The translations under genes were made by a program, and so were the position numbers. A DNA stretch of 64,000 bases from Thiohalospira halophila DSM 15071 (GTDB taxonomy: Bacteria; Pseudomonadota; Gammaproteobacteria; Thiohalospirales; Thiohalospiraceae): positions 124,001 through 188,000 of the forward strand of contig NZ_FOMJ01000006.1 of NCBI RefSeq assembly GCF_900112605.1, written 5' to 3'. Under the pieces are notes generated by a model. That model had not been told where the DNA came from and ran no database searches. It saw only the letters and a program-made list of their open reading frames with translations. Shown one piece after another: positions 32,108 through 35,067 of this stretch (position 1 is its first letter; each line of letters begins with the position of its first letter).

Positions 32108-33612
<1,505 letters not shown>

Positions 33613-33688
33613 TGATGGCGGTACGCCCTCTCGGGGCCTCCCCTAGCATCGACAGCCTCAGGGGGCATACGCCCTCGGGGGGTCGTTC

Positions 33689-34585
33689 ATAAAGTCCCTG
33701 TTCGTCCATGGCCCTTCGGTCACCGCCCGCCTGGTCCTGGTCACCCTCCTCTCGGTGAGCCTGATGGCCGTCGACCATCGCCAGAATCACCTGGAGACCA
33801 TCCGCGGAATGGTCTCCACGGTGATCTATCCCCTGCAGCTGGCTGCCGACGCACCCGCCTCACTGGCCGGCATGCTGTCCAGCGCCATGACCTCCCAGCG
33901 CGATCTCCGGCGGGAGCTGGCAGAACTCAAGCGGGAGCGCCTCTTCCTGGAGGCGGAGCTCCAGCGCATGGCGGCCCTGGAGGCGGAGAACGAGCGCCTG
34001 CGCCGACTGTTCGAATCCAGCCGCGCCCTGGACGAGCGGCTGGAGATCGCCGAGATCCTCTCCGTGGACCTCGACCCCTTCAGCCGCCAGGTCGCCCTGA
34101 ACAAGGGCAGCCAGCAGGATCTCTATCGCGGCCAGCCCGTGCTGGACCGGGACGGCGTCATGGGTCAGCTCACCCATGTGGGCCCGCTCTCCAGTACTGC
34201 CATGCTGCTCACCGATCCGGCCCACGCCATCCCGGTCCAGATCAATCGTACCGGTCGCCGGGCCATCGCCGTGGGCACCGGTTCGGCGGAGCGGCTGGAC
34301 ATCCCCTACATCCCCAACAACGCGGATATCCGGAACGGTGACCTGCTGGTCACCTCCGGCCTGGGAGGGCGCTTCCCGTCCGGCTATCCGGTCGCCCGGA
34401 TCACGAACATCGAGCCGCGCCCGGGTGAATCCTACGCCCGCGTCGACGCCGAGCCGCTGGCCCGGATCCACCGGGTCCGCGAGGTCCTGCTGGTCTGGTC
34501 CGACCAGGGCGACAACCCGGCCGGGGAGCCATCGGTGCCGGCCGAGACGGCGCCGGCCGGGGCGGCCGACGAGGAGGCGCCATGA
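33689..34585 (+). CDS. mreC: Rod-shape-determining protein MreC (apparent ATA start)
   Basis: A 298-residue periplasmic elongasome scaffold with one N-terminal membrane helix (about residues 11-25), a coiled coil (about residues 55-110, 'RRELAELKRERLFLEAELQR') and two beta domains ('GQPVLDRDGVMGQLTHVGP', 'GDLLVTSGLGGRFPSGYPVA'). The family-typical N-terminus KSLFVHGPSVTARLVLVTLL is encoded, yet the codon before it is ATA at 33689, with a G-rich ribosome-site-like stretch ending six bases upstream. No ATG, GTG or TTG occurs in frame between the upstream stop (33644) and a GTG at 33755. Starting at that GTG would delete the membrane helix. Either AUA initiates, a CTG at 33698 is used, or the base call is wrong. 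It overlaps mreD (ATGA). Confidence 0.85.
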   Translation: MKSLFVHGPSVTARLVLVTLLSVSLMAVDHRQNHLETIRGMVSTVIYPLQLAADAPASLAGMLSSAMTSQRDLRRELAELKRERLFLEAELQRMAALEAENERLRRLFESSRALDERLEIAEILSVDLDPFSRQVALNKGSQQDLYRGQPVLDRDGVMGQLTHVGPLSSTAMLLTDPAHAIPVQINRTGRRAIAVGTGSAERLDIPYIPNNADIRNGDLLVTSGLGGRFPSGYPVARITNIEPRPGESYARVDAEPLARIHRVREVLLVWSDQGDNPAGEPSVPAETAPAGAADEEAP

Positions 34586-35067
34586 GCACCGGCCGTCGCG
34601 GCATTGGCCTCATCTTCGCCACCTTCGTGGCCGCACTGGTCCTGACCCTGGTGCCCATGCCGGACTGGAGCCGGCTGCTGCGCCCCGAGTGGACCCTGCT
34701 GGTGCTTACCTACTGGGCCATGGCGACCCCGGATCGGGTGGGCGTGGGCGTGGCCTGGCTCCTGGGGCTCTTCCAGGATGTGGCCGTGGGGACCCTGCTG
34801 GGCCAGCACGCCCTGACCTTTGCGCTGGTCACCTACGTGGTCCTGCGGCTGCATCCGCGGCTGCGGATCTATCCCGTGTGGCAGCAGGCGGTAAGCCTGC
34901 TGGTACTGGTGGCGCTGCACCTGCTCGTCACCCGCTGGATCATGGGCTTTACCGGGAATGCCCCCGAGACCCTGTGGTTCTGGGCCCCGGCCGCCACCAG
35001 CGCCGTCCTCTGGCCGTTGATCTTCGTCTTCCTGCGCCGACTGCGTCGGCGCTACCGTATCGCCTGA
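34582..35067 (+). CDS. mreD: Rod-shape-determining protein MreD
   Basis: A 161-residue inner-membrane protein with about five hydrophobic helices. Family-typical stretches are 'PDWSRLLRPEWTLLVLTYWA', 'GVGVAWLLGLFQDVAVGTLL' and 'GQHALTFALVTYVVLRLHPR'. It bridges MreC and the RodA-PBP2 synthase. The ATG overlaps the mreC stop, and mrdA starts 2 bp after its TGA. Confidence 0.94.
   Translation: MSTGRRGIGLIFATFVAALVLTLVPMPDWSRLLRPEWTLLVLTYWAMATPDRVGVGVAWLLGLFQDVAVGTLLGQHALTFALVTYVVLRLHPRLRIYPVWQQAVSLLVLVALHLLVTRWIMGFTGNAPETLWFWAPAATSAVLWPLIFVFLRRLRRRYRIA

Follow-up and report, generated by a model that had tools for sequence, protein, structure and literature searches.

The mreC gene in the window (the whole 64,000-nucleotide stretch of Thiohalospira halophila DSM 15071 DNA that was analysed) probably begins with the ATA codon at position 33689, as one instance of an old class-wide design in which a weak start would limit the amount of MreC and make its synthesis responsive to the start-checking factor IF3. 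At the corresponding position, 125 of 185 motif-bearing mreC loci carried ATA, ATC or ATT (hereafter ATH, or AUH in mRNA). The sequence-only reading of this region, which had proposed the ATA start and called for a comparison with orthologues, was strongly supported by that comparison and, if anything, understated, the feature being spread, on the alignments, over the whole class.

The mreC start region in the window

The features of the locus are as follows.

32566..33612, forward strand: mreB, ATG start; upstream neighbour, used as control
33609..33692, forward strand: small ORF of 27 codons, ATGATGATG, overlapping the mreB stop; its TAA overlaps the ATA start as ATAA
33644..33646, forward strand: in-frame TAG, which excludes a start farther upstream of the mreC ATA (frame reading)
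33677..33682, forward strand: GGGGGG, Shine-Dalgarno-like run, 6 nt before the ATA
33689..34585, forward strand: mreC CDS, 298 codons, putative start ATA, stop TGA; PF04085; N-terminus aligned to 234 loci
33689..33691, forward strand: putative ATA start codon of mreC; aligned position ATA 37, ATC 43, ATT 45, ATG 24 in 185 motif-bearing loci
33698-33700, forward strand: CTG, codon 4 (Leu) of mreC, in frame
33755-33757, forward strand: GTG in the mreC frame, 22 codons past the ATA, inside the membrane helix
34582..35067, forward strand: mreD, which starts with an ATG that overlaps the stop of mreC; next gene downstream, used as control

The open reading frame was identified as mreC by its match to PF04085 (139.3 bits against a cut-off of 28) and by its position between mreB and mreD, the order mreB-mreC-mreD being present in the window (ORFs 32566-33612, 33689-34585 and 34582-35067). 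Translation downstream of the ATA gave KSLFVHGPSVTARLVLVTLLSVSLMAVDHRQ, which is the conserved MreC N-terminus that had been said to follow this codon directly, and the G-rich, ribosome-site-like run was found as described (GGGGGG, 6 nt 5' of the ATA). This G-run, not GGAGG, is the window's own Shine-Dalgarno sequence, and the duplex of the upstream stretch with ACCUCCUUA was calculated at -10.1 kcal/mol. The genome comprises 2.69 Mb in 23 contigs; the G+C content of the window is 70.5%, and the mreC start is the sole ATA among the 136 Ile codons of seven window genes. The ATA aligns exactly with the ATG of E. coli mreC.

Reading of the frame bore out the claim that no ATG, GTG or TTG is available between the upstream stop (TAG, 33644) and the GTG at 33755. 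That in-frame stop, together with the Ile usage test described below, ruled out the reading of the ATA as an ordinary Ile codon inside a gene that starts farther upstream. It is very improbable that the real start lies instead at the CTG (33698), which had been offered as the other option, or at the GTG: both codons are in frame and the annotated start of P. aeruginosa mreC is a later GTG, but codon 4 is CTG in just 27 of the 125 ATH loci, while a start at 33755 would remove residues 2-22, which are conserved, and with them most of the membrane helix, as had been foreseen, and conservation begins at the ATH codon.

Start codons of mreC across the Gammaproteobacteria

The class search for mreC covered 370 genomes (337 with a match, 33 without), and 80 lower-scoring genomes were searched a second time, all with a match; the first sampling rounds favoured lineages near the query. 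Own-genome copies or unrelated matches (L001, L002, L003, L143) and genomes already in the set (L231, L232) were dropped, which left 234 loci with N-termini aligned by MAFFT, among them probably at least one further duplicate (L038/L064, both 6,949-base contigs with an identical leader). Codon tallies were limited to the 185 of these 234 loci with the motif x-K-x-L-F, in which the K and L positions were defined loosely; 11 of the other 49 also showed ATH at the estimated start.

Among the 185 motif-bearing loci the start position was ATT in 45, ATC in 43, ATA in 37, ATG in 24, GTG in 1, TTG in 1 and another codon in 34, the last group comprising 9 loci that lack a canonical codon and have ATH at most three codons upstream, and 25 with a canonical codon elsewhere. 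No ATG, GTG or TTG occurred from the upstream stop through codon 5 in 105 of the 125 ATH loci, in 71 of which that stop was at most 10 codons away, and in 100 ATH loci none occurred up to codon 13. The other 20 had a canonical codon somewhere in frame (6 within codons 2-5 only and 14 upstream), a few of the upstream ones very near the ATH start, such as that of L065 at -2. Counted by taxonomic unit (family, or a single row where there was no family code), an AUH start was found in 75 of 90. The mreC gene thus shows an AUH start, without a usable canonical start, that is kept across orthologues while its third base varies. In some families (L236, L238, L114, L117, L106, L162) the ATH was located one codon farther upstream (ATC or ATT, followed by K or S and the motif), which would place the beginning of MreC one residue earlier there.

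A sequencing or assembly error of ATG, which had been raised as a possibility, has a negligible probability. The ATA was read from a single genome, with no same-genus genome among the relatives searched, but all 10 matched genomes of the window's family (12 searched; window included) have ATH, nine as ATA and one as ATT, as do many other families, and errors would not recur at one codon. Already in the first set of 38 rows (36 loci and the window twice, as L001 and L004) the counts were ATA 19, ATT 6, ATC 6, ATG 1, GTG 1 and unclear 5, so that 17 of the 36 other loci were independently ATA and 12 were ATT or ATC. Within the family, locus L014 has ATH at the mreC start and is without the regex motif, and two near-complete genomes (G002 and G008) gave no mreC match in the search.

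Inspection of named organisms revealed both forms. In P. aeruginosa CP123788.1 (L145), ATC is present at the conserved position (219) after GGAG, and mreC is annotated from GTG 267, 16 codons late, in this one annotated record inspected. All 30 loci read from a Pseudomonas-like genus (56 genomes matched; assigned from ~80% identity to P. aeruginosa MreC) were ATH (26 ATC, 3 ATT, 1 ATA). The conserved position is ATG in E. coli, Aeromonas caviae and Proteus mirabilis; in two Acinetobacter records a GTG, the annotated start, precedes it by one codon; and Legionella adelaidensis has neither form at the aligned position and an annotated GTG upstream. Twenty further class members comprised 5 with ATH, 10 with ATG and 5 with another N-terminus and ATG upstream. 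Among 20 loci (L351-L370) from the phylum's other classes, none combined an AUH start with a KPLF-type motif; their N-termini differ, and all except L362 have an in-frame canonical codon.

The neighbouring genes served as controls. Within a 139-locus subset, mreB was matched in 138 loci, and all 134 whose N-terminus could be aligned had a canonical mreB start (134 of 134); mreD starts were canonical in 136 of 138, the two exceptions resembling alignment slips. Judged by these starts, mreC alone among these neighbours carries the AUH signal.

Conservation, third-base history and Shine-Dalgarno strength

Conservation in the 125 ATH loci begins abruptly at the ATH codon: K2 is kept in 112, P9 in 97, S10 in 93, R14 in 114 and S22 in 105, with synonymous change free; the start codon and F5 are given by the choice of motif, which also biases the counts at K2 and L4. 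Codons -12 to -5 showed ~4 bits of entropy and contained stop codons, and the drop at codons -4 and -3 is the Shine-Dalgarno sequence itself. Translation from the ATH codon is, on this evidence, visible in the conservation pattern of mreC.

The third bases of the ATH codons departed from the Ile usage of the same genes (expected ATA 8.4, ATC 77.5 and ATT 39.1; observed 37, 43 and 45; chi2 113.7, p 2e-25), which indicates that the codon is not an ordinary decoded Ile. Their history was followed on a tree built with FastTree from MreB and MreC together, minus the first eight MreC residues. Parsimony required at least 42 changes among ATA, ATC and ATT and at least 9 between ATH and ATG, and in this rough count 9 of 51 changes involved G, compared with half if G were equally open (p 3e-6). 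The third base therefore changes readily, with G as the one base that is largely avoided; as the counts are lower bounds and the tree has no established root, gain and loss are not separable with certainty. The ATG and other canonical starts formed 11 separate clades, of which one holds E. coli, Proteus, Aeromonas and one further genome, and another ten genomes of six families. Since Enterobacterales-type genomes and several other clades use canonical starts, the weak start is not indispensable.

The ATH codons follow strong Shine-Dalgarno sequences. Mean energy was -7.44 kcal/mol for the 125 ATH mreC loci, against -3.79 for 219 mreB ATG starts and -3.14 kcal/mol for 24 ATG-type mreC genes; 95% of the ATH loci reached -4 kcal/mol or lower, compared with 36% in shuffled sequence. 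At -5 kcal/mol or lower the raw counts were 115 of 125 ATH and 7 of 24 ATG loci; the association of ATG with loss of the strong Shine-Dalgarno was not significant after correction for the tree (0 against 4.2 pairs, median p 0.125).

Termination and reinitiation, in which a small ORF from the mreB stop region brings ribosomes to the mreC start and couples it to mreB translation, is an unlikely main explanation. The window ORF at 33609-33692 ends as ATAA on the mreC start, a small ORF ends at the start in 8 of 9 tabulated family loci including the window (two of them begin with TTG or GTG), and class-wide 60 of the 125 ATH loci have one, compared with 44.8 +- 3.9 in shuffled intergenic sequence. 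This excess is modest, however, and 65 ATH loci have no such ORF; ATA followed by AAA yields TAA automatically, and a strong Shine-Dalgarno is in place at most loci. Reinitiation may add to direct initiation at mreC, not replace it, and the window ORF is a possible coupling element of uncertain significance. A shared 20-codon small ORF (MAA....LLLAA.KHIQE. type), with TGA just before the ATA, was seen in L006, L008 and the more diverged L016, and could be either a conserved small peptide or mere DNA similarity.

Likeness to infC and a proposed role for IF3

AUH weak starts are rare and known mainly from infC, the gene of IF3, and very few non-canonical starts are known whose function has been kept (infC, sigR and pcnB). 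The E. coli pcnB start is AUU, and pcnB resembles mreC as an otherwise ordinary gammaproteobacterial gene with such a start; included as a further positive control, it had canonical codons in frame upstream in most of the relatives examined. The likeness to infC drawn by the sequence-only reading was apt, since infC of the window genome (L248) starts with ATC after GGAGG, which gives this genome at least two AUH-start genes. Of 30 infC loci examined in the same genomes, the anchor was found in 28, and 27 of these begin with ATH, counted only as the class AUH because the script's pick among adjacent ATA and ATC codons was uncertain in some loci; the mean Shine-Dalgarno energy of the 27 was -8.9 kcal/mol. 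An AUH start, a strong Shine-Dalgarno and conservation across relatives are thus common to infC and mreC, and the ATH mreC genes have the strong Shine-Dalgarno expected of infC-type genes. The two differ in that IF3 regulates itself at infC, whereas MreC is a cell-shape protein without a known link to IF3.

IF3 represses infC, whose start is ATT in E. coli and ATC in Streptomyces, and likewise sigR at its GTC start; when this GTC is replaced by a canonical codon, more SigR is made than of its partner RsrA (PMC5472188). Streptomyces sigR resembles mreC in its non-canonical start, in lying outside the translation machinery and in having been misannotated, and its start keeps one operon partner below the other (PMC5472188); it differs in its codon (GTC), in being actinobacterial and in that its regulation was proven by experiment, that of mreC being a proposal. 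IF3 permits non-Watson-Crick pairing at the third base only and excludes weaker pairs there, and in vitro, where the third-base pair was weak, as in AUU/CAU, the yield of correct products fell as IF3 was raised (PMC10158994).

By analogy with infC and sigR, the AUH codon of mreC should hold MreC down and make it responsive to IF3. The ATA would be read by initiator tRNA as fMet, with two bases paired and a mismatch to the anticodon CAU at the third base only; this weak start would let IF3 reject a large share of initiation attempts on mreC, MreC would be made in a limited amount relative to MreB, and its synthesis would rise and fall with IF3 activity, as for infC. A regulatory role of the ATA start is therefore plausible on these parallels, from which we infer reduced initiation, dependence on IF3 and a stoichiometric purpose.

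A true AUH start could instead set a fixed low rate, MreC being needed in small amount and its synthesis not regulated at the level of IF3. The conservation and Shine-Dalgarno data fit a fixed setting as well as a regulated one, and canonical starts were adopted or kept in 11 clades. Were only a low rate required, however, ATG, GTG or TTG behind a weak Shine-Dalgarno would be the usual solution (compare the mean of -3.14 kcal/mol in ATG-type mreC), and what recurs instead is a strong Shine-Dalgarno with AUH, the same pairing as in infC; we consider the fixed rate a serious contender, if clearly a less likely one than an IF3-responsive start.

It is conceivable, and suggested here tentatively, that an IF3-responsive mreC start operates in much of the Gammaproteobacteria, including Pseudomonas, wiring cell-wall elongation to initiation capacity, and that the E. 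coli lineage lost the switch. If so, synthesis of the elongasome scaffold would vary with the amount of IF3 relative to initiating 30S ribosomes, and elongation would be tied to translation-initiation capacity via IF3's own autoregulatory switch; the E. coli lineage would have moved to ATG and given up the strong Shine-Dalgarno, and the model organism would have hidden the switch. Whether bacterial cell shape is coupled to translation-initiation fidelity becomes a testable question.

A published reconstruction found that 1 of 61,358 ancestral AUG starts had switched to AUU (PMC5622118), which makes an AUH mreC start in so many taxonomic units striking. In that study AUU- and CUG-start genes, being few, were excluded from some of the analysis, and mreC goes unmentioned in the main text (PMC5622118). 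Our full-text literature searches, with most subscription journals outside their reach, found no report of mreC with an AUH start. Gene finders limited to ATG, GTG and TTG can cut the MreC membrane anchor, as in the one P. aeruginosa record.

Other features of the start region were noted. A hairpin between mreB and mreC was considered as a common element and was not convincing (mean fold z -1.28, 24% of 103 below -2, window -1.4). Leu4 in the ATH loci was CTA in 29 and TTA in 25, against gene-body expectations of 5.1 and 10.3 of 103, and GC3 of mreC codons 2-8 was 48% versus 66% in the body; the A/T-rich beginning perhaps keeps the weak start unstructured. C was enriched before the ATH starts (61% at -2 and 57% at -1 in the 125 loci), and with one locus per family it was found in 48 of 75 at -2 and 48 of 75 at -1, with CC in 29 of 75; the corresponding positions of the window (33687-33688) are TC.
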